From Bacillota bacterium (lineage in GTDB: Bacteria > Bacillota > DTU030 > DUMP01): DNA of 64,000 nucleotides. Every line of letters starts with the position of its first letter. The stretch's first letter is position 1. This document shows positions 7,891 to 27,466 of this stretch, in pieces. The translations under genes and the position numbers were made by a program. A model generated the notes under the pieces. The model searched no databases, was not told the DNA's origin, and saw nothing but the letters and a program-made list of their open reading frames with translations. The stretch covers positions 1 through 64,000 of the forward strand of contig DURJ01000117.1 in NCBI GenBank assembly GCA_012837285.1, in the 5' to 3' direction.

Positions 7891-8001
7891 AACCGAGACC
7901 TCCTTATGAATCTTTTGTCATAGGATACGATCGGTGGCCTCGAAATGTGAAAGTAACATTTGCCTGTAGGACAGGGCATATCATGTACAGAGGTGAGCTA
8001 G

Positions 8002-8463
8002 GTGAAGGAAGGCCCTGTGATGCTGGCCCTGGTATTTCTAATCGGCATATTCACCAAAAACCCCGTTTTGACCGGAGCCGCTGCGTTTGTTTTGGTTTTG
8101 GGCTTGGAGCCGCTGCGACCGGCACTGCTGTTGTTTTGTCAGCACGGGGTCTTCTTAGGCTTGCTGTTGCTTACGGTAGCTGTCTTAGCACCGCTTTTGG
8201 CAGGGGAATTCGGCCTGGCTGATATTATGGCCACTTTGTTTTCTCCTACTGGGCTCGTAGCTATTATCGGCGGTGTGTTGTCATCTCTCATGAATCGCAG
8301 AGGTGTAACCTTGCTGCAGTGGGAGCCGTCTCTGGCAGCCGGTGTAGTGTTGGGATCTCTTATTTCCATGGCTTTTTTGGGCGGCATACCGGTGGGTCCG
8401 GTGATGGCCGCCGGACTGGCCAGCGTACTGATTGACATATTGCGGGCGCTAAATATTTTGTGA
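8002..8463 (+). CDS. DUF441 family membrane protein
   Basis: A 153-residue protein with four to five predicted membrane helices and the Gly-rich pattern of the DUF441/UPF0756 (YeaL-like) family, for example KNPVLTGAAAFVLVLGLEP near the N-terminus and GGIPVGPVMAAGLASVLIDI near the C-terminus. Function is unknown in this family. The start at GTG 8002 gives six residues before the conserved helix; GTG 8017 or ATG 8020, with GGAAGG upstream, is at least as likely. It is divergent from the solute-binding protein gene and is followed by an imperfect hairpin. Confidence 0.82.
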   Translation: MKEGPVMLALVFLIGIFTKNPVLTGAAAFVLVLGLEPLRPALLLFCQHGVFLGLLLLTVAVLAPLLAGEFGLADIMATLFSPTGLVAIIGGVLSSLMNRRGVTLLQWEPSLAAGVVLGSLISMAFLGGIPVGPVMAAGLASVLIDILRALNIL

Positions 8464-8470
8464 CCTGAAA

Positions 8471-8510
8471 AAAGCAGGCCTGTACTTGCGCAGCCCTGCT
8501 TTCACTCTTT
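8471..8510 (+). terminator. Probable terminator after the DUF441 gene
   Basis: AAAGCAGG (8471-8478) pairs with CCTGCTTT (8495-8502). The downstream T run is weak (TTCACTCTTT), so activity is less certain than for the other terminators here. Confidence 0.45.
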
Positions 8511-8608
8511 GTGCTTAGACTGGGATTTCCGCTTAACGGGGGCAATGTGCCCGATATTGCAGACAGTGAAAAACGGCTCCGGCTCAGCCCTTAATATCGA
8601 GGGTGCTT

Positions 8609-8785
8609 TAGCCGGCGGGAATGTCCCCTGAGCGCAATTTGGCGACCGCTATTAAAATAGCGCAGGCGAGCGAGGATAGGGCGGAGTGGGTGTCTGAGCC
8701 GAAGGCGAGTTCCCCGGAGCCCCCGAGCGAGCCGAGCTAATTCGTCCTCAGGTCGCATGGAGCGAAGGGGACATCCCACCGGCTA
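8609..8785. repeat. Inverted-repeat-bounded structured intergenic element
   Basis: The stretch 8464-8882 has no gene. Within it, a 21-base left arm (8609-8629, TAGCCGGCGGGAATGTCCCCT) and a 20-base right arm (8766-8785) are inverted repeats with one mismatch and one inserted base. The interior is rich in GC and self-complementary: CGCTATT (8647-8653) pairs with AATAGCG (8656-8662) across a two-base loop, and there are many GAGCGAG/CGAGC-type blocks. No plausible reading frame fills it. It could be a miniature mobile element, a dispersed chromosomal repeat or a structured RNA; the sequence alone does not decide. Confidence 0.6.
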
Positions 8786-8850
8786 CGTTTATGTTGCCTG
8801 GTTGGGCTGGAATTGGTTGCCGGCGAGCGCATGAAGCCGGGAACATACCT

Positions 8851-8871
8851 GAGCGCCGCACCGCGGCGCTC
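8851..8871. other. Perfect GC-rich hairpin at the end of the hypothetical gene
   Basis: GAGCGCCGC (8851-8859) and GCGGCGCTC (8863-8871) form a perfect 9-bp stem with an ACC loop. It lies 12 bases beyond the stop codon of the minus-strand gene at 8883. There is no T run on either strand, so it may be an mRNA 3-prime stabiliser or part of the neighbouring repeat rather than a simple terminator. Confidence 0.6.
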
Positions 8872-8882
8872 GATTTAGGCTA

Positions 8883-9272
8883 TCAACCGGTGGGACGGCG
8901 CGGCCCCTTACCGTTGGCCTCGATGAGATCTTCACCGTATTCTTCCAACAGTTCCTGGGTAGTCTTCATCTGCTCGCGCGGAGCTTTGGCTTCTAAATAG
9001 GTATCATGGTTTTGGTCGGACTGAACGCCGGGATATGAGGGCCGTTTCTGGCCCTTTTTTTGGGCACGATTTTTGCTTTTCTTCTGGGCCAAGTCTTTTG
9101 TCACCTCCTCATGGTAGTTTACCCGTTCACGCATGGCTTCCGGTGGCATCCAGGCATGCAAACTGGGAATTACCTCCCCCATACGGTCGCCGTCGGTTAG
9201 GATATTGAGGCCATACAGGTCTTCTTCCTCGCCTCGAGTCTGCGGCCTGAAAAACTTAGTCTTTTCGGTCAT
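8883..9272 (-). CDS. Hypothetical small charged protein
   Basis: A 129-residue soluble, strongly charged protein that I do not recognise. The N-terminal half contains GEEEDLYGLNIL and a MGEVIPSLHAWMPPEAM segment; the middle is a Lys/Gln/Arg-rich run (about residues 62-80); the C-terminus is acidic then basic. There is no signal peptide, membrane segment or cysteine. The start has GAGGTGAATTCCC directly upstream. It lies 16 bases after the MFS transporter gene on the same strand and may be co-transcribed with it. Composition is like that of small spore or nucleoid proteins, but that is only a resemblance. Confidence 0.65.
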   Translation of the reverse strand: MTEKTKFFRPQTRGEEEDLYGLNILTDGDRMGEVIPSLHAWMPPEAMRERVNYHEEVTKDLAQKKSKNRAQKKGQKRPSYPGVQSDQNHDTYLEAKAPREQMKTTQELLEEYGEDLIEANGKGPRRPTG

Positions 9273-9288
9273 GGGAATTCACCTCGTT

Positions 9289-10521
9289 TTAGTTATTTGC
9301 CGCTGTGTTATCATTATCCCCGGAGGTCTTTACCAGGTTTCTTGGCAGCATCTGGTTAGGATCCACCAACCGCCAAACCAGAGCTAGAATTGTGCCGGCG
9401 AGGGCAGCAAAAATTAAAAAAAGCGTTGTCTTTCCCAGTTTTAAACCCAGCCCTACCGCCGGCGGCCCGAGAGCGGCACCGAAAAATCGCACTGTACCGT
9501 AGAGGGCGGTTACAAAGCCCCGCTCACTGCTGGCGGCACTGGTAATTAGCAGATTAAGTCCGGGCAGGAATATGCCTAGACCAACCGCTGTCGCTACCAG
9601 GGGAACGAAGTACAGATACCCGGCTGGCAGCAGGGCTAAAGCAACCAGAGCGACGCTCACCACAGCGAGCCCCAAAAGCAGCGCTAACTTTACCGGCGGG
9701 CCCAGGCGTTTTTCCAAATAGACACCGATAAAGGAGCAAGTTAGGGTGAGAGACAGTACTGGAATTGCCACCAGCAGCCCACGGGTAAACCCTTTTATGC
9801 CCATCTTTTCTTCCATCACATCGGACAAGTAACTCAACAGTCCAAAGAACAGAAACAGGGCCAAGAAGCCGGCAGCAAAGCAGGCGGCTAAACCCAAACC
9901 CCGCTTGCTCCAGACTTGTTTTAGCTCCGCTATATATGTTTTAGCTTCCGGCGGAGCCGACGGCGGTGGTTCTTGGCAAACAAACCAAACCAAGAGGGCC
10001 GCCGGCCAAGCCAGCAGGCCATAGAGAAAAAAAGGAGCGAACCAAGCCAGGAGTGCTGCTGCCGACCCGAGCAAAGGAGCTACAACTTTGCCCAAGCCGT
10101 TGGCTGCTTCCAAATAGCCTACTGCCCGACTGCGTTCTTTACCGGTGTAAATATCCCCGGCTAAGGCCAGGGCCAACTGATAAGTACCGCCGCCGCCGAT
10201 TCCCTGTAGTACCCTGGCGGCCAGAATCCAGGGATAGGGATTTTTTAGCAGCCAAGCGGAGATACCGGCAGCCGTGCCGCCGAGACCAAATAAAACCAAA
10301 GCCCGTACCATGACAGCTTTTCGACCGATCCGATCGGATAAATAGCCGGCTCCAGGGATAACCAGGCCAGCGGTAAGGGAAAAAGCGGTAATAATAAGTC
10401 CGCTTTTAAATAAAGTCACTCCCAGTGCAGTTTGAATTTGCGGCAGAACCGGTATAAGAAGCGAGTTGCTAAGCACTAAAATAAACGGCACCAATAACAG
10501 GACCCAAAAGTCAGCAGACAT
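9289..10521 (-). CDS. MFS family transporter (12 helices)
   Basis: A 410-residue membrane protein with twelve predicted helices. The MFS motif A loop is present between helices 2 and 3 (GYLSDRIGRKAVM), and RVLQGIGGGGTYQLALAL is the motif B/C-like region typical of proton-driven drug exporters. Start placed at ATG 10521, where AAAGGGTGG lies a few bases upstream and the first helix follows at once; an in-frame ATG at 10545 would add eight residues without a convincing ribosome site. Likely an exporter of small molecules or drugs; substrate unknown. It is divergent from the SPOR gene. Confidence 0.88.
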   Translation of the reverse strand: MSADFWVLLLVPFILVLSNSLLIPVLPQIQTALGVTLFKSGLIITAFSLTAGLVIPGAGYLSDRIGRKAVMVRALVLFGLGGTAAGISAWLLKNPYPWILAARVLQGIGGGGTYQLALALAGDIYTGKERSRAVGYLEAANGLGKVVAPLLGSAAALLAWFAPFFLYGLLAWPAALLVWFVCQEPPPSAPPEAKTYIAELKQVWSKRGLGLAACFAAGFLALFLFFGLLSYLSDVMEEKMGIKGFTRGLLVAIPVLSLTLTCSFIGVYLEKRLGPPVKLALLLGLAVVSVALVALALLPAGYLYFVPLVATAVGLGIFLPGLNLLITSAASSERGFVTALYGTVRFFGAALGPPAVGLGLKLGKTTLFLIFAALAGTILALVWRLVDPNQMLPRNLVKTSGDNDNTAANN

Positions 10522-10674
10522 TATGCCCACCCTTTGCTCTGGCATTATCCCAACATATAATCTTCCCGGTAGGAAAGGATGTTAATCAAGCAGGATTTTT
10601 CTAACTGGTTGGCGAATTATTAACGAGCAGAGTTCGATTGTTGTCGGTATAGTGGCGAATAAGGGGGAGTATCT

Positions 10675-11487
10675 GTGGGAGGGCGGCGAGTACGCCGGCC
10701 ACAGCCCAAGAAGAGGCGGCCGGGATGCCTGCTGCAATTTATGGTGGCAGCCATAGCAGCAATAGCACTGGGATATTTCATGGGAACGTTTTTGTTCAAC
10801 CAACAGACGAGCCGTGACACTCTAACCACACCTGACCCCGTTTTGCAACAACCGGCTTCGCCAGAGGAGGCGCCAAATTCTTTACCGGAAGCAGAAAGCG
10901 AGTCTAAACCAATAGACGGCTCTGTTCGCATTCCTGAGCTGTGCTTATTTCAGGTACAAGTGGGGGCTTTTGGGCAAAAGGATAATGCTGAGCGGTTGGC
11001 ACAAGAGTTTTCTGTCCAGGGCGTGCCGGTGGAATTAATTCCAGCCGGTGATTTAACTCAAGTTCGCGCCGGACTCTTTTTTGGACGCCCACAGGCAGAA
11101 TCCTTTCGAGACCGAATCAGTACCAATCTGTTACAGCCCATAGTGGTAGAGAAGCTTGTAACAGCCAGAGAACTAGGTTACGCCGCCCTAGAGCAGGATT
11201 ATTACCAGTTTACGCTGGCGCTGGCTGAGAGTGTAGCCCAGGCTTTGATCGCTGCCGAAGAAGGCCGACTGGAAACAGCCCGGGCAGAAATGAGTGAGCT
11301 CCTAAAAGCAGCAAAAGAAATAACAATCTCCGCTGACAGAAAACAGGCTTTGACGGCCATGTTGCAGGACGTAAATTCTAATTTGGCCGAGGCTGCCAAG
11401 GCTCCGGCCCATGAGAAGTCCGCTGCTATTAGCCGGGGGATCAATGTGTTTGTCGACTGGTACCAAAGGCTGCGCAGCGCCGATTAA
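10675..11487 (+). CDS. SPOR-domain membrane protein
   Basis: A 270-residue protein. A very basic N-terminus (about residues 1-18) precedes a single membrane helix (about 20-42), a Pro/Glu-rich linker, and a SPOR domain at about residues 85-160 (FQVQVGAFGQKDNAERLAQ and LTQVRAGLFFGRPQAESFRD). The C-terminal 100 residues are helical and not recognised. SPOR domains bind denuded peptidoglycan glycan strands at division or sporulation septa, so a septal or cell-wall role is inferred. GTG start with AAGGGGGAG five bases upstream. The stop codon lies inside the loop of its terminator. Confidence 0.85.
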   Translation: MGGRRVRRPQPKKRRPGCLLQFMVAAIAAIALGYFMGTFLFNQQTSRDTLTTPDPVLQQPASPEEAPNSLPEAESESKPIDGSVRIPELCLFQVQVGAFGQKDNAERLAQEFSVQGVPVELIPAGDLTQVRAGLFFGRPQAESFRDRISTNLLQPIVVEKLVTARELGYAALEQDYYQFTLALAESVAQALIAAEEGRLETARAEMSELLKAAKEITISADRKQALTAMLQDVNSNLAEAAKAPAHEKSAAISRGINVFVDWYQRLRSAD

Positions 11488-11498
11488 GGCGCTTTTTT
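11476..11498 (+). terminator. Terminator overlapping the SPOR gene stop codon
   Basis: AGCGCC (11476-11481) pairs with GGCGCT (11488-11493) followed by TTTTTT; the TAA stop of the gene lies in the loop. Confidence 0.8.
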
Positions 11499-11520
11499 CG
11501 TGTAAAAAAGATTATGAACC

Positions 11521-11550
11521 TTGACCCTTAGACAAAATAGTGACTAATTA
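11521..11550 (+). promoter_or_regulatory. Possible promoter of the hydrogenase operon
   Basis: TTGACC (11521-11526), 18 bases, then TAATTA (11545-11550). The minus-ten hexamer is poor, so this is tentative. The 160-base gap before the first operon gene also holds AT-rich partial palindromes that do not match a known regulator site well. Confidence 0.3.
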
Positions 11551-11648
11551 AGAAGGAATTTTGTCGGGTAAAGCGAATAAGTATTTGTTGTAACATTGTC
11601 AAACAGTTGTAGCCTTCCTACCATTTGCTTTGGCAGGAGGAATGAGGA

Positions 11649-12023
11649 GTGAAACTGGCTGACGTAGAGCGGTTGCTCAAAGCGGAGGTGTTAGTGGCCC
11701 CGGTGGATGCGTCGGTGGAGATAACCGCTGCTGGCGCGGCCGATCTTATTTCGGATGTACTGGCATTCGTCAAGGAACGAACCCTTTTGCTTACCGGCCT
11801 TACCAACCCACAAGTGGTGACAGCGGCTGATTTAGTGGACCTGACTGGAATTGTCTTTGTCCGGGGCAAGAAACCAAGCCGGGATGTGCTGGAAATGGCT
11901 GAGCGGCGCGGATTGCCTCTGTTCAGGACCCATCTTCATATGTATGAGGCCTGTGGAATTCTTTATAAGGCTGGACTGAGAAGCTCCAGAGTTGGCCAGG
12001 ATGATAACAATGAGTTTTGCTAA
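11649..12023 (+). CDS. DRTGG-domain protein, first copy
   Basis: A 124-residue protein made only of a DRTGG-type domain (the fold also found in Pta-like and CBS-associated proteins): VAPVDASVEITAAGAADLIS, then LLLTGLTNPQVVTAADLV and GIVFVRGKKPSRDVLEMAE. GTG start with AGGAGGAATGAGG upstream. Such stand-alone DRTGG proteins are recurrent neighbours of [FeFe]-hydrogenase genes in Clostridia and Thermotogae; a ligand-binding or regulatory role is assumed, the ligand being unknown. A paralogue of equal length is encoded at 13784, on the other side of the sensory hydrogenase gene. The end overlaps the next gene by 23 bases, so the two are probably translationally coupled. Confidence 0.85.
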   Translation: MKLADVERLLKAEVLVAPVDASVEITAAGAADLISDVLAFVKERTLLLTGLTNPQVVTAADLVDLTGIVFVRGKKPSRDVLEMAERRGLPLFRTHLHMYEACGILYKAGLRSSRVGQDDNNEFC

Positions 12024-12453
12024 CAGTTACGATCTTACCCTTTTTATCACCGGTCGTGATTTTGTTACAGCCGGGCAGGCAGCCAGTAATATCAAACGGA
12101 CTTTAGAGACGCTTAATCTACCGCCGAAATTGGTCCGGCGGGCCACTATTTGTGCCTATGAAGCTGAGATGAATATTATCATCCATGCTTATGGCGGTCG
12201 AATGGGGCTGAGAGTCACAGAAGATGCGATTAGAATAGTGGCCCAGGATGAAGGGCCAGGAATACGGGATTTGGACCAAGCCATGGAAGAAGGCTATTCT
12301 ACTGCCTCGGAAGAAATTCGGGAAATGGGTTTTGGCGCCGGCATGGGTCTTCCCAATATGAAGAGGTGTGCTGATGAACTTGTCATCAACACTAATGCAA
12401 ATGAGGGCACCAGAGTCGAAATCACCATCTATCTACTGACGAGCGAGGGATAA
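12001..12453 (+). CDS. RsbW/SpoIIAB-like HATPase
   Basis: A 150-residue ATP-binding protein of the GHKL fold, similar to anti-sigma kinases such as RsbW: N box EAEMNIIIHAYGG (about residues 55-67), G1 box DEGPGI (about 82-87) and G2 box GFGAGMGLPNM (about 108-118). There is no sensor or phospho-acceptor domain. Starts at TTG 11992, ATG 12001 and ATG 12010 are all possible; 12001 is given. It lies between a DRTGG protein and the divergent hydrogenase, so it probably passes on the state of that protein by phosphorylating or binding a partner. The partner is not encoded here. Confidence 0.85.
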   Translation: MITMSFANSYDLTLFITGRDFVTAGQAASNIKRTLETLNLPPKLVRRATICAYEAEMNIIIHAYGGRMGLRVTEDAIRIVAQDEGPGIRDLDQAMEEGYSTASEEIREMGFGAGMGLPNMKRCADELVINTNANEGTRVEITIYLLTSEG

Positions 12454-12456
12454 GGC

Positions 12457-13827
12457 ATGGATTACTTCCACTCAGTCCGCCTTGATCGAGAAAAGTGTAA
12501 AGGATGTGTGAATTGCATTAAGCGTTGCCCAGTTGAGGCGATCCGTGTTCGCCATGGCAAAGCTGAGATTATGGAGGATAGGTGCATCGACTGCGGAGAG
12601 TGTATTCGCGCTTGTCCTAACCATGCGAAATATGTGGAGCGCGACACTATCCATGGTTTGCCCCAATTTGCCTACACCATCGCCTTACCGGCACCGTCCC
12701 TGTACGGACAATTTCGTGACAATGTAGGGCCGGGCCGGATTTTGGCAGCAATAAAAAGCCTGGGTTTTGATGATGTGTGGGAAGTGGCCTTAGGAGCGGA
12801 AATCGTGTCCCGGGCTGTGGGCGAGTATTTTCAGACCAATCGGCACTTGCGGCCGCTGATCTCATCAGCTTGCCCGGCAGTGGTACGTTTGGTTCAGGTA
12901 CGTTTTCCCTCGTTAGTAGATCATATCATTCCGCTGGAAAGCCCGATGCATGTAACAGCCAGCTTGGCCCGCTGGCTGACGGCAGAGAAGACCGGTATTC
13001 ATCCGGACAAGATCGGTCTCTTTTTCTTTAGCCCCTGTCCGGCTAAAGTAACAGCGGTGAAAAACCCAGTGGGGGGCGTACTGTCTGAAGTGGATCGGGT
13101 ACTGGCTGTTACAGATGTTTATGGTGAGTTGCTGCAAAACTTGCGGCAAGGACATCCATGTATGGTGCGAGCCGATAGGGTAGGGATCGGTTGGGGCAGT
13201 TCCGGTGGTGAACAAGCTGCCAGTGGGATTGAGAACTCCCTTATTGTGGACGGGATTCATAATGTTATTAGTGTGCTGGAGGAAATTGAGCTCGGGCGGC
13301 TAGGAGATATTGATTTTATTGAAGCCCAGGCCTGCCCGGGAGGTTGTGTAGGCGGCATCTTGAATGTGAACAACCGTTTTGTGGCCGGTGTGCGCTTGCA
13401 GCATTTGGTGCGTGATCTGCCCCAGAGTGCACCTTTGAGCGATCGACTGCATCAATTAGGTGCAGATCAGGTGGAAGTACCGAGCATTGCGGTAGAACCG
13501 CGCCCCATTGTTCATTTGGATCGGGACCTAAAGAAAGCTATGCAAAAACTGCAGCTGGTTAATGAATTGATGGAACTGCTACCAGGTCTCGATTGTGGTT
13601 CGTGCGGCGCTCCCACGTGCCGGGCTCTGGCTGAGGATATTGCCGTGGGTAAGGCTACGGAGACAGACTGTATCTTTAAGCTGCGTGAGCGGATCATGAG
13701 TCTGGCTTTAGATACCTATAACCTAGCTCAGGTGGTGCCTCCAGCCATGGATACACGCAAAGCCAATAAGGGGGGAAAGAAGGATGCAGCTGACACAACT
13801 GGTACAGATTCCGGAACTGAGACTTGA
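12457..13827 (+). CDS. hydS: Putative sensory [FeFe]-hydrogenase (HydS-like)
   Basis: A 456-residue soluble protein: two [4Fe-4S] ferredoxin motifs (CKGCVNC...CP and CIDCGEC...CP, residues 14-53), an H-cluster domain (about 70-310) and a C-terminal four-cysteine iron-sulfur motif of the PF04060 type (Cys 380, 383, 388, 405). H-cluster motifs are divergent: SSACPAV (Cys139) in place of TSCCPGW, SPCPAK (Cys194), and ACPGGC (Cys293, Cys297) without the usual GGGQP after it. The four cluster-ligand cysteines appear to be kept, but the adjacent cysteine used for proton transfer in catalytic enzymes is Ala138, as described for sensory-type hydrogenases such as Thermotoga HydS. It lacks a PAS domain. 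Low-activity H2 or redox sensing is inferred. The gene symbol is provisional. Confidence 0.82.
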   Translation: MDYFHSVRLDREKCKGCVNCIKRCPVEAIRVRHGKAEIMEDRCIDCGECIRACPNHAKYVERDTIHGLPQFAYTIALPAPSLYGQFRDNVGPGRILAAIKSLGFDDVWEVALGAEIVSRAVGEYFQTNRHLRPLISSACPAVVRLVQVRFPSLVDHIIPLESPMHVTASLARWLTAEKTGIHPDKIGLFFFSPCPAKVTAVKNPVGGVLSEVDRVLAVTDVYGELLQNLRQGHPCMVRADRVGIGWGSSGGEQAASGIENSLIVDGIHNVISVLEEIELGRLGDIDFIEAQACPGGCVGGILNVNNRFVAGVRLQHLVRDLPQSAPLSDRLHQLGADQVEVPSIAVEPRPIVHLDRDLKKAMQKLQLVNELMELLPGLDCGSCGAPTCRALAEDIAVGKATETDCIFKLRERIMSLALDTYNLAQVVPPAMDTRKANKGGKKDAADTTGTDSGTET

Positions 13828-14158
13828 GGTTAAGGCTGGACAGAAACAGCTTGACCGCGTGGTAAAAGGAGCGTACGCTTCGGACTTACTAAGCCATGTG
13901 ATGGCCCGAGCTAAAGAGGGAAATATTTGGGTCACCATTCAGGCCCATCAAAACATTGTGGCCGTGGCTGCCTTGCTAAACCTAGCCGGAATAGTTATTG
14001 CCGGGGGGATTGAACCCCAGGCAGACACACTGCTTAAAGCCGAAGAAGAGGGCATACCCATTCTTACCACATCGCTGGCTGCTTTCGAGGTGATAGGGCG
14101 CCTATATGCTTTAGGCGTGGGAGCCGATCATGGTCAGGCTGAACTGGCTCAAAGCTGA
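13784..14158 (+). CDS. DRTGG-domain protein, second copy
   Basis: A 124-residue DRTGG-domain protein, paralogous to the one at 11649: VKGAYASDLLSHVMARAKEG, then NIVAVAALLNLAGIVIAGG and EAEEEGIPILTTSLAAFEV. The start has AAGGGGGGAAAGAAGG upstream and lies inside the end of the hydrogenase-like gene (44-base overlap); its own end overlaps the PHP gene by 29 bases. The tight overlaps point to production in fixed ratio with the sensory hydrogenase. Ligand and role are unknown. Confidence 0.85.
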   Translation: MQLTQLVQIPELRLEVKAGQKQLDRVVKGAYASDLLSHVMARAKEGNIWVTIQAHQNIVAVAALLNLAGIVIAGGIEPQADTLLKAEEEGIPILTTSLAAFEVIGRLYALGVGADHGQAELAQS

Positions 14159-14900
14159 TCTTCACGTGCACACGGTATTGTCGCCCTGTGCTGAACTGGA
14201 CATGGGCCCGCAAGGATTAGTGACGGCGGCCTTGAATCGGGGGCTGAATATCCTCGGGGTGACTGATCACAATGCTTGGGCCAACGTGGCAGCGGTAACT
14301 GAACTGGCGCAGCCATACGGTATCGGTGTGTTGCCGGGAATAGAGGTTCAGACGCGGGAGGAAGTTCATGTACTTTGTTTCTTCCCCGACCTGGATCAGT
14401 TAGCTGCAGCCGGTGAGCATATCTACGCCAGTTTGCCGGCTATCCGTAACCGAGCTGATATTTTTGGCGATCAAATTATTGTGGACGCCAAAGAGAATAT
14501 AGTTGCCTTTGAGGAAAGAATGTTACTCAATTCGGTGGAACTGTCGCTGGAACAATTGCGTGATCTTACTTGCCGCCACGGTGGTATTATTATCCCGGCT
14601 CATGTGGACCGACCGGCATTTAGTCTCATCGCCAACTTAGGTTTCGTACCGCCGGATCTAAAGCCGGCGGCCCTAGAGATTTCAACCCGATTGGATGAAG
14701 AAAGGGCCCGGAAGCGCTTTCCAGCGCTTGAAGGATATACTTTGGTGACATCGTCCGATGCTCACTGCTTGGGCGATTTCGGAACCCCTAGATCAACGTT
14801 CTTTTATGTGGCGGCGCCAACACTAGCTGAAATAGCGTTGGCCTGTGCCGGTCGTAAGAACCGGAAGGTGGTGATTGCTTCGGAGGGAACCATATTCTAA
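14130..14900 (+). CDS. PHP-domain metal-dependent phosphoesterase
   Basis: A 256-residue protein with the full set of PHP metal ligands: DLHVHTVLSPC (about residues 9-19), GVTDHNAW (43-50), Glu in LPGIEVQTREE (about 70), IIPAHVDRP (about 152) and TSSDAHCLGDFG (about 207). Members are trinuclear-metal phosphatases or phosphodiesterases, such as the PHP domains of TrpH and histidinol phosphatase. The closest functional group is unknown. It sits between the DRTGG protein and hydC and is a regular member of this hydrogenase gene set, so it may hydrolyse a nucleotide or phosphoprotein signal produced by the module. That role is inference. Confidence 0.87.
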   Translation: MVRLNWLKADLHVHTVLSPCAELDMGPQGLVTAALNRGLNILGVTDHNAWANVAAVTELAQPYGIGVLPGIEVQTREEVHVLCFFPDLDQLAAAGEHIYASLPAIRNRADIFGDQIIVDAKENIVAFEERMLLNSVELSLEQLRDLTCRHGGIIIPAHVDRPAFSLIANLGFVPPDLKPAALEISTRLDEERARKRFPALEGYTLVTSSDAHCLGDFGTPRSTFFYVAAPTLAEIALACAGRKNRKVVIASEGTIF

Positions 14901-14976
14901 TTTGTTTTCCCCGCTTCCAATGCGGACGGGGTACACTTCTTTCATCGATGGGCATTCGGAAAAAGGGGGACTATGT

Positions 14977-15459
14977 ATGTGCGCATGTGTATGCGGTAAC
15001 AAAGAAGCCAAGCCGTCCGAACTGGACAAGATTTTGGCTCGGCACAAAGGGGAACGGGGTTCGCTGATACCGGTTCTCCAAGAAGTCCAGGAAGTACAAG
15101 GTTACATTTCTCAAGACGCAATTAGAGAGATTTCGGCAGCACTCAAGATCCCGGCCACTGATATTTTTGGCGTGGCCACATTCTACGCTCAGTTCCACTT
15201 AAAGCCGCGCGGGCGCCATGTGGTGCGTGTTTGCCAGGGTACAGCCTGTCACGTGCGGGGTTCGGCCAAAATCCTCGCCGAAGTGGAGAAAGAACTGGGA
15301 ATTCAACCAGGCGAGACCACCGAAGACCTGCGCTATACGTTAGAGCCGGTGGCTTGTCTGGGTTGCTGTGGTCTAGCCCCGGTAATGATGATTGACGAAG
15401 ATACTCATGGCCGCCTGACAGCGGACAAAGTGGCCGCTATCCTCGCCAAATACGAATAA
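14977..15459 (+). CDS. hydC: NAD-linked [FeFe]-hydrogenase subunit HydC (NuoE-like)
   Basis: A 160-residue thioredoxin-fold [2Fe-2S] subunit homologous to NuoE: the helical N-terminal part (LIPVLQEVQEVQGYI) is followed by the cluster ligands in VCQGTACHVRG and ACLGCCGLAP. It passes electrons within the HydABC complex between the NAD site on HydB and the rest of the chain. The start was set at ATG 14977, six bases after AAAAGGGGGA; the longer frame lacks a ribosome site. An unusual feature is the N-terminus MCACVCGNKE, with three cysteines in the first six residues, which standard NuoE lacks. Confidence 0.93.
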   Translation: MCACVCGNKEAKPSELDKILARHKGERGSLIPVLQEVQEVQGYISQDAIREISAALKIPATDIFGVATFYAQFHLKPRGRHVVRVCQGTACHVRGSAKILAEVEKELGIQPGETTEDLRYTLEPVACLGCCGLAPVMMIDEDTHGRLTADKVAAILAKYE

Positions 15460-15462
15460 AAA

Positions 15463-16011
15463 ATGGAAGAACTAGCCCTTCATGTTCTGGATCTGGCTCA
15501 AAACTCTTTAGCTGCCGGAGCCACGTTGGTAATAATTATTATTAATGAAGACACAATGACCAACCGGCTCACCATCGGCATTGAGGATAACGGGCGTGGT
15601 ATGGAGAGCGAGTTTGTTGTCCAGGTGCTGGATCCGTTCACTACTACTAGAACAACTAGGCGAGTGGGGCTAGGGCTACCGCTCCTTTTTATGACAGCCC
15701 GTCAATGCGGCGGCGATCTGACCATTGATTCTGAGCCGGGTCGAGGTACCAAGGTGACAGCAACTTTTGAGTTGGATCACTGGGATTTACCGCCGCTGGG
15801 CGATATGGCGAGTACCATCACTACACTGTTAGTGGGTCAATCAGAGGTAGACTTTCTGTATCGGCATATTGTTAATGGGATTGAATTTCGGTTGGATACG
15901 CGTGAACTTAGAGCTGAGCTCGATCCAGTTCCACTGACAGAGCCGAAGGTGTTAACCTTTTTGCAGGCGTATATTACTGACGAGCTGGCTAATTTGCATG
16001 GGGGTGAATAA
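15463..16011 (+). CDS. Histidine-kinase-like ATPase, hydrogenase-associated
   Basis: A 182-residue GHKL ATPase: N box LDLAQNSLAAGA (about residues 8-19), G1 EDNGRGM (about 44-50), and G2 GVGLGLPL (about 69-76) with a following SEPGRGTKV. It has no H-box dimerisation domain. The C-terminal 60 residues are not recognised. It sits four bases after hydC and just before a [2Fe-2S] protein; this order recurs in hydrogenase operons of Clostridia and Thermotogae. A role in signalling from the sensor module is likely. Its partner is unknown. Confidence 0.85.
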   Translation: MEELALHVLDLAQNSLAAGATLVIIIINEDTMTNRLTIGIEDNGRGMESEFVVQVLDPFTTTRTTRRVGLGLPLLFMTARQCGGDLTIDSEPGRGTKVTATFELDHWDLPPLGDMASTITTLLVGQSEVDFLYRHIVNGIEFRLDTRELRAELDPVPLTEPKVLTFLQAYITDELANLHGGE

Positions 16012-16012
16012 A

Positions 16013-16384
16013 GTGACGAGCAAGCTTCAGAGTTTGGACGATCTGCGCCGGTTGCGTGAAGATACTAGACAGGGTATGCAAAACCGCCTGAGCAGCGAGA
16101 CCCAAATTATTGTGGGGATGGGCACTTGCGGCATTGCAGCCGGAGCCAGGGAAGTAATGACGGCTATTCTGGAAGAATTGGCCAAACGCAATCTTAACGT
16201 GAACATTCTACAGACAGGTTGTATCGGCATGTGCCAGATGGAACCTTTAGTAGACGTAGTTCGCCCGAACGAAGAACGTATCACCTACGGTAATGTGACT
16301 CCGCGGGACATTCCTCGGATCATCGGGCAGCATGTGGTCAATGGGCAAATTGTGGAAGACCTGGTGATCGGTCGGACGGACTAG
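16013..16384 (+). CDS. Thioredoxin-like [2Fe-2S] ferredoxin
   Basis: A 123-residue protein with the C-terminal NuoE/thioredoxin-like [2Fe-2S] fold: MGTCGIAAGA and QTGCIGMCQMEP carry the four ligand cysteines. The N-terminal 30 residues form a helix (LQSLDDLRRLREDTRQGM). Start placed at GTG 16013, six bases after GGGGTG; a frame from ATG 15998 would overlap the preceding gene by 14 bases. It is encoded between the HATPase and hydB, and its fold duplicates the N-terminal domain of HydB. It may be an extra electron carrier or a redox input to the ATPase. Confidence 0.9.
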   Translation: MTSKLQSLDDLRRLREDTRQGMQNRLSSETQIIVGMGTCGIAAGAREVMTAILEELAKRNLNVNILQTGCIGMCQMEPLVDVVRPNEERITYGNVTPRDIPRIIGQHVVNGQIVEDLVIGRTD

Positions 16385-16428
16385 CTGCATCCGGAGCAGG
16401 TTACTGTGGCAAAAGGGAGGTCAAAGAA

Positions 16429-18222
16429 GTGCAGATTTTCCGTGCACATGTCCTAGTATGTGGTGGTACTGGCTGTACCTCGGGCGGATCACCGCAGATT
16501 AGGGCCCGATTAGAAGAAGAACTGGCCAAGAACGGTTTAGACAAAGAGGTTAACTTAGTGGTTACAGGCTGTCATGGCTTGTGTGAAATGGGCCCGCTGG
16601 TAATTGTCTATCCAGAGGGCACTATGTATGTCCACGTACAGCCTGATGACGTAGCCGACATTGTCAGCGAGCATTTACTCAAAGGCCGGGTAGTTCAACG
16701 CTTACTGTACAAGGAGCCGCTTACAGCAGAGCGGGTTCCGCATTACGGTGACTTGCCGTTCTATCACAAACAGCAACGGTTGGTGCTGAGAAACTGCGGT
16801 TATATCAACCCCGAAGTTATTGAAGAGTACATTGGTCGCGACGGTTATACCGCCCTGGGTAAGGCCTTGGGCCAAATGACCCCGGAGCAGGTGGTGGACG
16901 AAGTATTGAAGGCCGGGCTGCGCGGCCGCGGCGGCGCTGGTTTCCCCACCGGTCTCAAGTGGAACTTCTGTCGCAAGGCCCAAGGTGAGCCTAAATATAT
17001 TATCTGCAACGGTGACGAAGGCGACCCGGGCGCGTTTATGGACCGTAGTATCATGGAAGGCGATCCCCACCGGGTGCTGGAGGGTATGGCCATCGGGGCT
17101 TATGCCATCGGTGCCAGTGAGGGCTATATTTACGTTCGGGCTGAGTATCCGCTGGCGGTGAAGAGACTACACCTGGCGGTAAAAGAAGCCGAAGAAATGG
17201 GGCTTTTGGGCGACAATATCCTGGGAACCGATTTTTCTTTCCACATCCACATCAAAGAAGGTGCCGGTGCTTTTGTTTGCGGTGAGGAGACTGCGCTCAT
17301 GGCTTCGATCATGGGCCAGCGCGGTATGCCTTGGCCACGGCCGCCATTCCCAGCCAACTCCGGCCTCTGGGGCAAACCTACTAATATCAACAACGTGGAG
17401 ACCTGGGCCAATGTCCCAGACATTATTCTACGAGGGGCCGACTGGTTTGCTTCCATGGGTACAGAAAAGTGTAAAGGGACTAAGGTCTTTGCTCTTACCG
17501 GTAAAGTGCAAAACACCGGTTTGGTGGAAGTTCCCATGGGTATTAGCATGCGGGAGATCATCTTCGACATCGGTGGCGGTGTTCCCGATGGCAAGAAATT
17601 CAAAGCGGTTCAGATGGGCGGGCCGTCCGGCGGCTGCCTGCCGGAGAGTCAGCTGGATTTAGGTGTAGACTATGAATCCCTGACCGGTGCCGGTGCCATT
17701 ATGGGGTCCGGCGGCTTGGTAGTAATGGACGAAGAGACTTGTATTGTCGACGTGGCTCGTTTCTTCCTTAGTTTCACCCGAGCGGAGTCTTGCGGGAAAT
17801 GCACTCCTTGTCGTGAAGGCATTAAGCGCATGCTGGAGATCCTGGATCGAATCTCGGCCGGCGAAGGCAAGATGGAAGACTTGGATCTGCTGGAGAGGAC
17901 GGCTCTGATAGTGAAAAACAGTGCCCTCTGCGGTTTGGGCCAGACAGCTCCCAATCCGATCCTGTCCACGCTCCGTTACTTCCGTGACGAGTACGAAGCC
18001 CACATTCGGGACAAGCGTTGTCCGGCCGGGGTGTGCACAGCGCTTCTCACCTACAAGATTAAGCCGGAACTGTGCCGCGGTTGCACTGCCTGCACCAAAG
18101 TCTGCCCGGTGGGTGCTATTTCCGGCACGAGAAAGGCTGTGCATGTTATCGATCCCGACAAATGTATTAAGTGCGGTGCCTGTGCCGAACGCTGCCCGTT
18201 CAAGGCCATTGTCCGTGCTTGA
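16429..18222 (+). CDS. hydB: NAD-linked [FeFe]-hydrogenase subunit HydB (NuoF-like)
   Basis: A 597-residue flavin subunit. Domains in order: a thioredoxin-like [2Fe-2S] domain (Cys 11, 16, 48, 52), the NuoF FMN/NAD domain starting near residue 160 (GRGGAGFPTGLKW, then ICNGDEGDPGAF), an SLBB region, the NuoF [4Fe-4S] domain (SCGKCTPCREG) and a C-terminal pair of [4Fe-4S] motifs (CRGCTACTKVCP and CIKCGACAERCP). It binds FMN and NAD(H) and is the likely site where electrons split or merge in electron-bifurcating HydABC enzymes. GTG start with GGGAGG upstream. Length is normal for HydB. Confidence 0.95.
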   Translation: MQIFRAHVLVCGGTGCTSGGSPQIRARLEEELAKNGLDKEVNLVVTGCHGLCEMGPLVIVYPEGTMYVHVQPDDVADIVSEHLLKGRVVQRLLYKEPLTAERVPHYGDLPFYHKQQRLVLRNCGYINPEVIEEYIGRDGYTALGKALGQMTPEQVVDEVLKAGLRGRGGAGFPTGLKWNFCRKAQGEPKYIICNGDEGDPGAFMDRSIMEGDPHRVLEGMAIGAYAIGASEGYIYVRAEYPLAVKRLHLAVKEAEEMGLLGDNILGTDFSFHIHIKEGAGAFVCGEETALMASIMGQRGMPWPRPPFPANSGLWGKPTNINNVETWANVPDIILRGADWFASMGTEKCKGTKVFALTGKVQNTGLVEVPMGISMREIIFDIGGGVPDGKKFKAVQMGGPSGGCLPESQLDLGVDYESLTGAGAIMGSGGLVVMDEETCIVDVARFFLSFTRAESCGKCTPCREGIKRMLEILDRISAGEGKMEDLDLLERTALIVKNSALCGLGQTAPNPILSTLRYFRDEYEAHIRDKRCPAGVCTALLTYKIKPELCRGCTACTKVCPVGAISGTRKAVHVIDPDKCIKCGACAERCPFKAIVRA

Positions 18223-18246
18223 TTGACAGCCCAAGGAGGACTGAAG

Positions 18247-19971
18247 ATGGACACAATCACGTTAACCATAGATGGCCGCCAGGTTCAGGTGGCAAAGGGT
18301 TCCACCGTGCTGGAGGCAGCGCGTGCAGCCGGCATTAACGTTCCGACCCTTTGCTATCATCCCGAGCTTCGGCCTGAAGGCGCCTGTCGTTTATGTGTGG
18401 TGGAAATAAAAGGCGGCAAGAGCTTAGCTGCGGCTTGTGTCATGCCGGCGGCTAATGGTATGGAGGTTTATACCAATACGCCGCTGGTGCGCGAGGCTCG
18501 CCGTATTGCTTTGGAACTGCTGCTGGCCAACCACCCGTTTGAATGTCTAACCTGTGAGCGCTCCGGTAATTGTGAGCTCCAGACCCTGGCCCATGACCTG
18601 GGTGTAAGGGAAGTACGCTATAGCGGCGAAAAACGCCATGTTCCCATCGACGACTCCAGCCCAGCATTGGTGCGCGACCCGAACAAGTGCATTTTGTGCG
18701 GACGTTGTGTTCGTATGTGTGACGAAGTGCAGGGCGTACATGCTTTAGGCTATATCAATCGTGGCTGGGACACGGTGGTAGAGCCCCTGTTCGGACAGAA
18801 GCTGGCCGAAGTGGCTTGTGTCAATTGCGGCCAATGCTCTACGGTTTGTCCTACCGGTGCCATCACCGAAAAGAGCTATGTGGATGATGTTTGGGCCGCT
18901 CTCGCCGATCCTGATAAATATGTTGTAGTACAAACGGCACCGGCAACCCGGGTGGCTGTGGGTGAAGCACTGGGCATGGCACCGGGAGCTATTGTTACTG
19001 GCCAGATGGTGGCCGGTCTCAGACGGCTGGGATTTGACAACGTTTTCGATACTGATTTCACCGCTGACCTTACTATTTTAGAAGAAGGGAACGAGCTGTT
19101 AGACCGGCTGAAGAACGGAGGTCCCTTGCCGCTCCTTACCTCGTGTAGCCCTGGTTGGGTCAAGTTCTGCGAGCACTTTTATCCGGATCTTTTGCCCCAT
19201 GTTTCCACTTGCAAGTCGCCACAACAGATGTTTGGCGCTATAGCCAAGACTTACTATGCCGACAAGATCGGGGTCAAGGCCGAAGACATGTATGTAGTAT
19301 CGATTATGCCCTGTACCGCCAAGAAATACGAAGCTCAGCGGCCGGAAATGACAGCCTCAGGTGTAGCCGATGTGGATGCTGTTCTTACCGTTCGTGAATT
19401 GGCTCGTATGTTTAAGGAAGCCGGCATTAACTTCGAAGGTCTGCCGGAGGAAGACTACGACGATCCGCTTGGAATTTCTACCGGTGCGGCTGTTATCTTC
19501 GGCGCTTCCGGCGGCGTGATGGAAGCAGCCCTGAGAACGGTATACGAAGTGGTTACCGGAAAGACCTTGGAAGCCCTAGATTTCACCGAAGTGCGCGGTC
19601 TTACCGGTATCAAAGAAGCAGAAGTAGATCTGGACGGCACTAAAGTCAAAGTGGCCGTATCTAACAGTTTGGCCAATGCTCGCCAAATCCTAGACAAGAT
19701 CAAGGCCGGCGAGGCTCCGTGGCAGTTTGTGGAGATAATGGCTTGTCCCGGTGGCTGTATAGGCGGCGGCGGGCAGCCCATCCCGGTGGATCGTGAAGCA
19801 CGGGAAGCCAGGATTAAAGCTATTTACGATGCTGATAAGGGTATGCCAATCAGAAAATCCCATGAAAACCCGGCGGTTCAAACACTGTATAAAGAGTTCT
19901 TAGGTGAACCTTTATCCCACAAGTCGCACGAACTGCTTCATACGCACTATACTGAGCGGTCGGCTTTTTAA
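18247..19971 (+). CDS. hydA: [FeFe]-hydrogenase catalytic subunit HydA
   Basis: A 574-residue enzyme. Domains in order: an N-terminal [2Fe-2S] ferredoxin (Cys 36, 47, 50, 64), a His-Cys3 [4Fe-4S] site (His96, Cys100, 103, 109), two [4Fe-4S] sites (about 148-202), then the H-cluster domain with TSCSPGW (298-304), MPCTAKK (354-360) and MACPGGCIGGGGQP (about 498-511), and a small-subunit C-terminal tail. It reduces protons or oxidises H2, taking part with HydBC in NADH/ferredoxin-linked H2 metabolism. In the first motif the second residue of the usual Cys pair is Ser. Start set at ATG 18247 because AAGGAGG lies eight bases upstream. Confidence 0.95.
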   Translation: MDTITLTIDGRQVQVAKGSTVLEAARAAGINVPTLCYHPELRPEGACRLCVVEIKGGKSLAAACVMPAANGMEVYTNTPLVREARRIALELLLANHPFECLTCERSGNCELQTLAHDLGVREVRYSGEKRHVPIDDSSPALVRDPNKCILCGRCVRMCDEVQGVHALGYINRGWDTVVEPLFGQKLAEVACVNCGQCSTVCPTGAITEKSYVDDVWAALADPDKYVVVQTAPATRVAVGEALGMAPGAIVTGQMVAGLRRLGFDNVFDTDFTADLTILEEGNELLDRLKNGGPLPLLTSCSPGWVKFCEHFYPDLLPHVSTCKSPQQMFGAIAKTYYADKIGVKAEDMYVVSIMPCTAKKYEAQRPEMTASGVADVDAVLTVRELARMFKEAGINFEGLPEEDYDDPLGISTGAAVIFGASGGVMEAALRTVYEVVTGKTLEALDFTEVRGLTGIKEAEVDLDGTKVKVAVSNSLANARQILDKIKAGEAPWQFVEIMACPGGCIGGGGQPIPVDREAREARIKAIYDADKGMPIRKSHENPAVQTLYKEFLGEPLSHKSHELLHTHYTERSAF

Positions 19972-20017
19972 TAAGTGGAGCTTGAGTTGTTAAGAAGCTT
20001 ACGGTGAGATAATTTAG

Positions 20018-20159
20018 TCAGGGACAGGCCGAGCAACTGCTAAGGCAATATAAGGTGCCCTGTTGTATTACCGCTGGACCTGTCCCTGATATCGGCCTCA
20101 ATGCCGCGGTCGGGCTTGGTGGCGACCGGCTCTATACTACCCGTCAAACCTCCGGGTAG
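20018..20159 (+). other. Structured leader region between hydA and fdhA
   Basis: The 328-base gap holds three successive hairpins: TCAGGGACAGG (20018-20028) with CCTGTCCCTGA (20079-20089), extended inward by CC/GG and AGC/GCT pairs; CGGTCG (20107-20112) with CGACCG (20123-20128); and CTACCCG (20137-20143) with CGGGTAG (20153-20159). None is followed by a T run. About 140 further bases without clear structure lead to the fdhA ribosome site. I could not match it to a known riboswitch class, including the molybdenum-cofactor RNA. Confidence 0.5.
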
Positions 20160-20299
20160 GGGCGGATTGATCTAGGTTTGGTTGTGTCCGGGCTGTAGAG
20201 AGTATTGGTTTTTCAAGGGTAGAATTCGTGGCAGTTGTGTGGGCAGCGCACAATGGCTGCGGAGCTAGAGCGACATCATAACGAGAGGAGGTCTTGCCG

Positions 20300-22993
20300 T
20301 TGAAGATGGTGGAGTTTACCATGGATGGTCGTCAGGGATCAGTCCCTGAAGGGACCACCATTTTGGCAGCGGCAGAGAGCCTTGGTATAGAAATCCCTAC
20401 TTTGTGCTATGAACGGGATTTAGTTGTAGCCGGGGCCTGTAGGTTGTGTGTAGTGGAAGTGGAGCAGATCAAGAAGAACTTGCCGGCTGCTTGTGCTCAG
20501 CCGGTAGGGCCGGGCATGGTTATTCATACTAACAGCCCGAGAGTGAAGGAAGCACGGCGAACGATTCTGGAGCTTATTATTGCCAATCATCCCCTGGATT
20601 GTCTGACTTGTGAAGCCAACGGCAAGTGTAAACTGCAGCAGTATTGTTATGAGTATGGAGTCAAAGATACACCGTATCGAGGCGAGACGCGTCAATACGA
20701 AATTGACGACAGCAACCCGTTCATAGAACGGGATATGGACAAATGCATTCTCTGCGGCAAATGTGTGCGTATATGTGCTGAAGTCCAGGGTGTTCATGCC
20801 ATTGGCTATATCGACCGTGGCTTTGACACCAAGATAGGTACCTTATTCGACGGGGAATTGGCCGATTCACCTTGTGTGTCCTGCGGCCAGTGCATCTACA
20901 TGTGTCCGGTGGGAGCGCTGACAGCGAAACCGAGTCATGGATTGGGACGGGATTACGAGGTTGAAAAAATACCCACTACCTGTCCGTATTGTGGTGTGGG
21001 TTGCCAGTTGGCTCTGAACGTAAAGAATGACAAAATCGTCGGGGTTAGCAACATTGCTGACAGCCACAACCAAGGATACTTGTGTGTGAAGGGACGCTTT
21101 GGCTATGAATTTGTTCACAGCCCAGACCGTCTAACCACACCCTTGATCAAAAAGAACGGCCAGTTTGAAGAAGCCACCTGGGACGAGGCTTTGGATTTGG
21201 TGGCAGAAAAACTGGGGGCTATCAAGTCTGAATATGGCCCGAATGCCATTGCTGGGTTAACGTCAGCCAAATGTACCAATGAAGAAAACTACCTGTTCCA
21301 AAAATTGATGCGGGCGGTGATTGGCACTAATAATGTAGACCATTGTGCCCGTCTCTGACACGCTCCTACCGTAGCCGGTCTGGCTACTGCATTTGGGAGC
21401 GGCGCTATGACAAACAGTATTGAGGAAATAGAGCAGGCAGAAGTTATCTTGGCTGTGGGTACCAATACTACTGAGACCCATCCGGTGATTGGCACCCGGG
21501 TGCACAAAGCTATCACCCGAAACGGAACCAAACTCATCGTCGTTGATCCGCGCCAGACCACCATGTCTGAGCGAGCCGACATTTGGCTCAGGCCTTGGCC
21601 CGGCACTAACGTAGCAGTGGCTAATGGGTTGCTCAATGTCATTATTGCAGAGGGCCTGGCGGATGCTGCCTTTATTGAAGAACGGACGGAGAATTTCGCT
21701 GCGGTCAAAGAAGCTGTAGCGGCTTATACCCCGGAGGAAGTGGAGAAGATAAGCGGTGTCCCGGCCGACGATCTCAGGGCTGCAGCCCGCTTGTACGCTT
21801 CAGCCCAGCGGGCCAGCATTTTGTACACCATGGGTCTTACCCAGCATAGCACCGGCACTGATGGCGTTTTGTCCATGGCTAATTTGGCTCTGGTTACGGG
21901 GAACCTCGGTAAGGTTGGTACCGGCGTGAATCCCCTCAGAGGCCAAAACAATGTGCAGGGTGCATGCGATATGGGCGGTCTACCTGATGTTTTCACCGGT
22001 TACCAGAAAGTTTTCGATCCAAATGCACAGGAAAAGTTTACCCAGGCTTGGGGTGTGTCTGCACTTCCGTCCGAAGTGGGTCTCAAGATGGGACAGATCT
22101 TTAAGGGCGCCGGTGACGGCACCATTAGAGGCATGTACATCATGGGTGAGAACCCACTTCTGAGCGAACCGGACCTTAACCATGCCACCGAGTGTTTAGA
22201 GAATATTGATTTCCTGGTAGTTCAGGACCTTTTCCTCACCGAGACGGCGGAGCTGGCCGACGTAGTTCTGCCCGCTGCTTCCTTTGCCGAAAAAGACGGC
22301 ACTTTCACTAATACTGAGCGCCGAGTTTGCCGGGTTCGGCAGGCCGTATCCCCGCGGGGAGAAGCCAAACCGGATTGGCAAATTATCTGCGAGTTGTCCA
22401 ATCGGTTAGGATATGCCATGAACTACAGTCATCCCAAAGAGATCATGGACGAAATCGCGTCGGTGACGCCGAGCTATGGCGGCATAAGCTACGACCGCTT
22501 AGAAAACGGGGGCTTGCAGTGGCCGTGCCCGGACAAGGAACATCCGGGAACGACTTACCTGCACAAAGGGAAATTTGCCCGTGGTTTGGGCAAGTTCACC
22601 CCGGTAGAGTACAAACCGGCGGCTGAGCTTCCGGATGAAGAGTACCCGTTCTATCTGACCACCGGCCGGATTCTGTATCATTACCATGGTGGCACCATGA
22701 CCAGACGGGTGGATGGACTGAACGAGCTGGCTCCGAGCGGACTGCTGGAAGTTAACCCTGCCGATGCTGCCAAGCTAGGCTTGGAAGATGGAGAGGTTGT
22801 CCGGGTGAGCTCGCGGCGGGGAAGCATAACGCCCGAGGTGGAGATTACTGACCGGGTTAAACCGGGGCTGATGTTCATCGCCATGCATTTCAGGGAAGCT
22901 GCGGCTAACGTTCTTACCCAAGCTGTCTACGACCCAGTTTCCGGGATTCCGGAATACAAGGTTTCAGCGGTGAAGGTGGAGAAAATAAGTTAA
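20300..22993 (+). CDS. fdhA: Selenocysteine formate dehydrogenase catalytic subunit
   Basis: An 897-residue enzyme read through an in-frame TGA at 21356-21358 (Sec353; context CARL-Sec-HAPT). N-terminal half: [2Fe-2S] ferredoxin, His-Cys3 [4Fe-4S] (HPLDCLTCEANGKC) and two [4Fe-4S] motifs (CILCGKC and CVSCGQC), as in HydA. Then the molybdopterin/tungstopterin oxidoreductase part begins with its own cluster motif CPYCGVGC; the Sec residue would bind Mo or W. The C-terminal molydopterin dinucleotide-binding domain includes YPFYLTTGR. It interconverts formate and CO2. Start at TTG 20300 (or ATG 20306) follows AGAGGAGG. Lying after hydCBA and before focA, mobA and fdhD, it probably draws on the HydBC diaphorase or on ferredoxin. 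Standard translation would break it into pieces of about 350 and 528 residues. Confidence 0.95.
21356..21358 (+). other. UGA selenocysteine codon of fdhA
   Basis: In-frame TGA at codon 353, directly followed by CACGCTCCT (His-Ala-Pro), the residues that follow the active-site Sec or Cys in formate dehydrogenases. Homology continues without interruption on both sides. Confidence 0.95.
21359..21402 (+). promoter_or_regulatory. Bacterial SECIS hairpin
   Basis: Immediately after the UGA: lower stem CGCTCC (21361-21366) with GGAGCG (21396-21401), upper stem GTAGCC (21371-21376) with GGCTAC (21382-21387), apical loop GGTCT (21377-21381). The stem length, distance from the UGA and GGUC-type loop match the SelB-binding hairpin of Escherichia coli fdhF. 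Confidence 0.92.
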
Positions 22994-23134
22994 CGGAGCT
23001 TGTAGCTGAGAGTACACCTGTTCGCGGTGCAGCAGAACCAACTGCGTCTGCTGCGCCGCCAGAACCGGTCAGCTCACAACATAGGGAGTTTTGGTGTTAG
23101 GAAAAGAAACCGACTTTAAAGGAGGTCCGGAACG

Positions 23135-23968: not shown

Positions 23969-24009
23969 ATACGGTAAGTATGGCTATATCATAAGGACCG
24001 GAGTAAGGG

Positions 24010-27454: not shown

Positions 27455-27466
27455 GGGGAGTTGGAA

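Follow-up and report, generated by a model that had tools for sequence, protein, structure and literature searches.

We examined a stretch of 64,000 nucleotides (the window) from contig DURJ01000117.1 of a Bacillota bacterium of the DTU030 lineage (assembly GCA_012837285.1), in which positions 11649-16384 hold eight tightly packed genes on the forward (+) strand, adjacent ones overlapping or almost touching. They encode, in this order, a small DRTGG protein (D1), a SpoIIAB/RsbW-like GHKL ATPase (h1), a sensory-type [FeFe]-hydrogenase (HydS), a second DRTGG protein (D2), a PHP metallophosphoesterase, the hydrogenase subunit HydC, a second GHKL ATPase (h2) and a thioredoxin-like small subunit (f); the hydrogenase genes hydB and hydA come next. 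We suggest that these genes form an H2- or redox-responsive protein-switch module that heads the hydrogenase operon, and that its output would fall on enzymes using ferredoxin and nicotinamide adenine dinucleotide (NAD) rather than on transcription. Judged from comparisons of sequences and gene order, we consider this proposal about evenly poised between right and wrong. An earlier sequence-only reading of the same DNA had named the genes and their place, and scans with Pfam and NCBIfam models recovered every one of them on that strand. It had also taken them for one functional unit with a signalling role, which is borne out by the conservation and repeated fusions described below and by the fact that signalling fits every part.

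The association is strongly conserved. We searched for HydS in 399 genomes of the phylum and extracted 119 neighbourhoods, to which 80 named loci were added; 187 of the loci are distinct. Gene calls were simple open reading frames (ORFs), several loci stop at contig edges, and the numbers of loci given for each gene are lower bounds. With strong matches counted as presence of HydS and a threshold of E <= 1e-35 for h1, h1 is present in 157 of the 159 genomes with a group D HydS, versus 10 of the 240 others (tallied by hand, like the PP2C counts below; our Fisher tests on such counts ignore phylogenetic relatedness). Matches to the h1 of the module mostly lie below E = 1e-50, and those to generic SpoIIAB/RsbW relatives at about 1e-18 or weaker. 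The module was found in about 40% of the sampled relatives. Among the 129 loci with full flanks, h1 was detected in 125, h2 in 117, PHP in 114, D2 in 106 and D1 in 103. Across 80 genomes the profile of PHP, D and h2 matches the h1/HydS pattern, with h2 and D2 ranging slightly wider, also into hyd operons without HydS. Chance is far from explaining the arrangement, given that 187 distinct loci share the gene order and close spacing; a lack of conserved association had been named beforehand as what should overturn the idea, and the outcome instead speaks strongly for it. Outside the phylum, named records from Atribacteria and Spirochaetaceae genomes carry the module, and Parabacteroides distasonis has a stand-alone six-gene version, D1-h1-HydS-D2-PHP-h2, with no adjoining hyd genes. 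The record of this last copy (NZ_OY725779.1; locus L279) is labelled a plasmid, yet gyrA and a gene for a Clp ATPase are on it, so it may be a chromosome fragment.

The sensory genes had been described as interleaved with hydCBA. The adjacency stands, and the spacing refines it to two blocks: a sensor block, D1-h1-HydS-D2-PHP, with median intergenic gaps of -4 to +15 nucleotides, and an enzyme block, hydC-h2-f-hydB-hydA, set off by a PHP-hydC gap with a median of 91 nucleotides across loci (76 in the window). Some genomes have the two blocks divergently transcribed. By this spacing h2 usually belongs to the enzyme block, and it bridges both, since it is fused to PHP in 5 loci and lies within the sensor block of Parabacteroides. 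Other natural fusions join D1 to h1 (11 loci), h1 to HydS (2), HydS to D2 (2) and h2 to f (1, L098).

HydS (12457-13827, +; 456 residues) comprises Fe_hyd_lg_C, an FeS domain and two Fer4 domains, and the Pfam scan found no PAS domain in it. In an alignment of 23 sequences (A1), the H-cluster ligands Cys139, Cys194, Cys293 and Cys297 are invariant, as are two N-terminal [4Fe-4S] motifs (C14/17/20/24 and C43/46/49/53) and the ligand cysteines of a C-terminal Cx2Cx4Cx16C motif (C380, C383, C388, C405). Alanine (in SSACP) replaces the proton-transfer cysteine, C299 in CpI. By the published definition of the class (PMC8163306), the sequence is that of a group D (M2e) enzyme; thus the protein is of sensory type, as first supposed, but it is not of the PAS-bearing group C found in Thermotoga. 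Two loci (L238, L239) have HydS in two ORFs within an otherwise complete module, for which sequencing error and decay are both possible.

The sensor is exchangeable. Where h1 occurs without HydS, it carries N-terminal tandem CBS domains in 8 of the 12 readable loci, versus 4 of the 175 HydS-bearing ones. One locus (L245) reads D1 - CBS-h1 - D2 - PHP - h2 - hydC - f - hydB - hydA: HydS is lost, CBS is gained, and the rest is identical. Another (L247) reads D1 - CBS-h1 - f - rnfCDGEAB, and four modules with HydS (L127, L131, L133, L135) stand upstream of rnf. These gene arrangements show that HydS is optional in the module and that CBS can take its place on h1. A response to H2 or redox state, as originally proposed, fits the loci with HydS, but the input would not always be H2; likewise, the module does lie beside hyd, but it is not linked to hydrogenase alone, as some modules accompany rnf.

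The two ATPases had been named without distinction. Both are present, but they are unlike: h1 resembles SpoIIAB/RsbW and is tied to HydS, and h2 occupies the position of HydE. The h1 gene (HATPase_c_2) spans about 12010-12453 (+), within an ORF open from 11992 in which the ATG at 12010 is the likely start. Over 175 homologues the Glu, Asn and His of its N box and its G1 and G2 boxes are kept at 95-100%, and its only sequence relatives in the PDB are SpoIIAB and RsbW. We regard it as a candidate serine kinase of this type. No STAS antagonist or sigma factor was found beside it, either at the locus or among recurrent neighbours, and we reject membership in canonical partner switching while keeping the analogy. 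The only STAS protein of the genome is the SpoIIAA of an ordinary spoIIA operon, which supplies the kinase and sigma factor that go with it, so there is no orphan STAS partner for h1. The second ATPase, h2 (15463-16011, +), consists of a histidine-kinase-type HATPase_c domain and about 75 further residues. In its N box Asp10 replaces the usual catalytic Glu in 94% of 150 homologues. The scans found HATPase_c alone, with no HisKA phospho-acceptor domain in the protein and no receiver at the locus, and canonical two-component signalling was rejected for h2 on these grounds. Its gene follows hydC and precedes those of the small subunit and of hydBA, the place occupied by hydE in Acetobacterium; it is by gene order and published description that h2 matches the HydE of A. 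woodii.

Candidate partners of h1 are provided by the DRTGG proteins. D1 (11649-12023, +) begins with GTG downstream of AGGAGG and scores 28.1 bits against PF07085 (cut-off 25.2); D2 (13784-14158, +), which overlaps the end of hydS, scores 33.7 bits. Ser35 of D1, in the motif A-D-L-I-S-D (codon 11751-11753), is serine in 142 of 142 D1 domains, and the equivalent Ser37 of D2 (codon 13892-13894), whose domain also has a W-x-T motif, is serine in 99% of 145. This DLxS serine is common to D1 and D2 and absent from the other DRTGG proteins that we aligned. With a serine that is invariant and peculiar to their family, D1 and D2 make the earlier statement that the ATPases lack phospho-acceptor partners too strong. 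The AlphaFold2 model of D1, with a predicted local distance difference test (pLDDT) score of 92, places Ser35 at the beginning of a helix (34-40), and Foldseek matched this model to 2ioj, with a template modelling (TM) score of 0.79, and to 3l2b/3l31. The remaining gene of the sensor block encodes PHP (14130-14900, +; 256 residues; PF02811, 27.9 bits against a cut-off of 26.4). Its predicted His, Asp and Glu metal ligands are kept in 97-100% of 152 homologues, it has an LSPCA motif, and its nearest relatives in the PDB, EndoQ, the 5'-3' exoribonuclease 7ug9 and 2yb1, are PHP enzymes that cleave nucleic acids or nucleotides.

Given the conserved boxes of h1, the DLxS serine and the lack of an orphan STAS protein, a kinase gated by redox state or adenylates and acting on the DRTGG proteins is the best-supported reading. 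HydS, by way of its H-cluster and the [4Fe-4S] cluster at its C-terminus, would report H2 or the redox state of ferredoxin to h1; in loci lacking HydS, and at times in those having it, CBS pairs would provide an adenylate (energy) input. Working as a serine kinase like SpoIIAB or RsbW, h1 would use ATP to modify the DRTGG proteins, most likely at the DLxS serine, and PHP would strip the phosphate, or a nucleotide ligand. Located inside the enzyme operon, h2 and f would read the state of D1/D2, and this readout would adjust how active, or how fully assembled, the ferredoxin/NAD oxidoreductases are, namely HydABC in the window and Rnf at other loci. In its most specific form, the hypothesis is of a widespread bacterial phospho-switch free of STAS and sigma factors: an RsbW-like kinase taking interchangeable inputs, an H-cluster hydrogenase for H2 or a CBS pair for adenylates, would phosphorylate the DLxS serine of DRTGG proteins, PHP would reverse this, and HydABC and Rnf would be directly tuned; we put this version forward tentatively, as one that is more probably wrong than right.

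Several observations weigh against the kinase reading. The closest NCBIfam model to h1 is SpoIIAB, at only 54 bits against an equivalog cut-off of 135; for RsbW, too, h1 stays well under the equivalog cut-off. The AlphaFold2 model of a D1-h1 fusion has a predicted TM score (pTM) of 0.54, too weak to put the serine near the ATP site, and that serine could bind the phosphate of a ligand rather than undergo phosphorylation. Neither mutual-information covariation nor mirror-tree distance matrices separated interacting from control pairs. With Asp in place of Glu, h2 may not be a kinase. Finally, 37 of 186 loci have a Rex gene within the sequence fetched around them, which makes a transcriptional output possible.

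The strongest competitor, which we consider improbable although worth retaining, is a nucleotide messenger: DRTGG and CBS domains would bind adenine nucleotides, be it adenosine mono- or triphosphate (AMP, ATP), diadenosine tetraphosphate (Ap4A) or a related compound, PHP would hydrolyse the ligand, the GHKL ATPases would be ATP-driven conformational switches without protein phosphorylation, and HydS would couple the system to redox state. The D1 fold matches the DRTGG of the regulatory region of CBS-pyrophosphatase and AF1212, CBS domains are fused to h1, the relatives of PHP are nucleic-acid and nucleotide hydrolases, and a DLxS loop at the start of a helix could bind phosphate. Against this, the likeness of h1 in the PDB is to serine protein kinases only, with the catalytic Glu kept, and enzymes that make nucleotides are not among the recurrent genes of the cluster.

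A transcriptional output would require h1 to hold or release a sigma factor or regulator encoded elsewhere, possibly linked to Rex, with DRTGG proteins replacing STAS; we find this unlikely. The resemblance of h1 to SpoIIAB/RsbW speaks for it, as do the Rex genes, which lie at position -2, upstream of a D1-h1 fusion, in ten loci. It is also favoured by group C-type HydS relatives near some modules, which are fused to sigma-54 activator domains or to a PAS-histidine kinase. Fused to such varied outputs, the H-cluster domain behaves as a plug-in sensor. But the recurrent neighbours include neither a sigma factor nor a STAS protein nor an output regulator, the sole STAS protein belongs to spoIIA, and h2 and f are embedded within the enzyme operon. 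The conserved set includes no DNA-binding protein. Among the group C-type fusions (L041, L051, L052, L069, L073, L105; L039, L046; L088) we also noticed, by eye, an apparent MCP-type signalling domain.

The same genome has a second sensory locus. On its contig C108 (L281, 9012-12707), a PAS-containing HydS of group C type (580 residues) overlaps the gene of a SpoIIE-type PP2C, with Rex following them, and a HydS-family ORF lies beside PP2C in 30 of 30 fetched relatives. The PP2C is present in 89 of the 167 h1-bearing genomes versus 30 of the 232 h1-less ones in the set of 399. Being enriched with h1 but not tied to it, PP2C is not simply the missing counter-enzyme, and the idea that the group C HydS-PP2C pair is the obligatory phosphatase counterpart of the module is weakened by its presence in these 30 h1-less genomes. 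Several of them have no DRTGG match, so PP2C must have another target there.

A third possibility, for which we see little room, is a role in building or repairing the enzymes: the ATPases together with f and PHP would aid the assembly or reactivation of HydABC or Rnf, and HydS would serve as redox gate. A. woodii HydE has been proposed for 'assembly or signalling' (PMC3315566), and near 9-12 loci we identified apparent [FeFe] maturase genes. However, many genomes with [FeFe]-hydrogenase-like genes have no parts of the module, and the module exists both without adjacent hyd genes (L279) and beside rnf. A chance or passenger neighbourhood without functional link is highly improbable: flanking housekeeping genes (folC, valS, SPOR) recur too, but the h1 counts in genomes with and without HydS, several independent fusions and the stand-alone copy in Bacteroidota contradict it.

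The genes of the enzyme block are those of an electron-bifurcating-type hydrogenase. The NuoE-like hydC (about 14977-15459, +; PF01257 and NuoE models) lies in an ORF open from 14875, with the ATG at 14977 as likely start; f (15998-16384, +), of HydD/HndB type, matches NCBIfam fdxn_Clost and, weakly, PF01257; the NuoF-like hydB occupies 16429-18222 (+), and hydA, at about 18247-19971 (+), encodes a group A6 [FeFe]-hydrogenase catalytic subunit (NCBIfam NF040763, E 1e-278). In two loci (L066, 3980-7015; L069, 3879-6905) HydB is about 1010 residues long, with a C-terminal half that by eye resembles a GltD/NfnB-type flavoprotein, possibly another bifurcation partner. In nine loci a membrane protein identified from sequence as RseC/SoxR-reducing-like lies between h2 and f or after h1 (e.g., L045, L244, L249). 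The upstream limit of the unit is marked by an intrinsic-terminator-like hairpin (11476-11493, +) after the SPOR-domain gene, found by pattern scan as a consensus match alone; the region contains no more hairpins of this kind than shuffled sequences do. The SPOR-domain gene itself (10675-11487), directly upstream, is found at position -3 in 40 loci and is a conserved, probably unrelated neighbour. An Rfam scan of 8000-26000 gave zero RNA-element matches.

Downstream of hydA lies a gene (20294-22993) for a formate dehydrogenase predicted to contain selenocysteine, since its frame reads through a TGA (21356-21358) within the motif CARLUHAPTVAG; in the draft genome the selenocysteine tRNA (tRNA-Sec) could not be confirmed. 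A formate/nitrite-type transporter, mobA-like and fdhD-like genes, rnfCDGEAB (26141-30497) and an ApbE-like gene follow at 23135-31564. With these genes, from formate dehydrogenase to rnf, downstream of it, the module heads a redox island of about 19 kilobases. Two Rex-operator-like sites lie upstream of rnfC (25404-25421 and 25764-25781), within a window whose matches are not above chance; upstream of D1 the same search found none.

In the gut, as in anaerobic digesters, the course of fermentation depends on the partial pressure of H2. To our knowledge, years of biochemistry on group D sensory [FeFe]-hydrogenases have left their output unknown. The present comparison gives group D HydS a near-obligate partner, h1, and a candidate substrate residue. 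The swap of sensor for CBS in an otherwise identical operon, together with the compact copy of P. distasonis, makes the sensor output directly testable, and a switch governing how much flux passes through bifurcating hydrogenase or Rnf would, if true, be of broad interest.

Among known sensors, HydS is close to group D enzymes such as TamHydS of Thermoanaerobacter mathranii, which resembles the HydS of the window in its domains, its missing proton-transfer cysteine and its Cx2Cx4Cx16C end; its gene, too, precedes those of a bifurcating-type hydrogenase, a trimeric one (PMC8163306, PMC13104023). Beside it, published accounts record no more than a HATPase and an 'AraC family regulator' (PMC8163306, PMC13104023). 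T. wiegelii, of the same genus, carries all of D1, h1, HydS, D2 and PHP, and its hydS is followed by the gene of a DRTGG protein with no AraC match, so the AraC label is probably a misannotation. We did not find the full set of kinase, DRTGG proteins and PHP, the fusions or the HydS-less forms in the open literature, and full-text searches there for DRTGG together with hydrogenase returned nothing related; a fuller earlier description may exist in subscription journals.

In Acetobacterium woodii, hydCEDBA has the order C - ATPase - small subunit - B - A, as here, and HydE is reported to be similar to histidine-kinase ATP-binding domains and not to be part of the enzyme; that operon differs in having five genes, with no sensory block described (PMC3315566). 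The hfsABCD genes of Thermoanaerobacterium (group C) likewise pair a sensory H-cluster protein with an enzyme of serine phosphorylation, the PP2C HfsC (PMC11837493), and the HydS-PP2C pair on contig C108 resembles hfsBC. They differ from the module in having a phosphatase in place of a kinase and no DRTGG proteins. Family II pyrophosphatases (3l2b, 3l31) contain a D1-like fold and pair CBS with DRTGG as here, but there the two regulate a pyrophosphatase, whereas in the module they are encoded beside a GHKL ATPase or form part of it, and D1/D2 bear the DLxS motif. The SpoIIAA-SpoIIAB-sigmaF and RsbV-RsbW-sigmaB systems resemble the module in that their kinases are related to h1, and next to h1 lies the gene of a small putative partner whose invariant serine opens a helix. 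They differ in that the locus described here has no STAS protein, sigma factor or PP2C, the putative partner has a DRTGG fold, and the input would come from a hydrogenase or from CBS domains.

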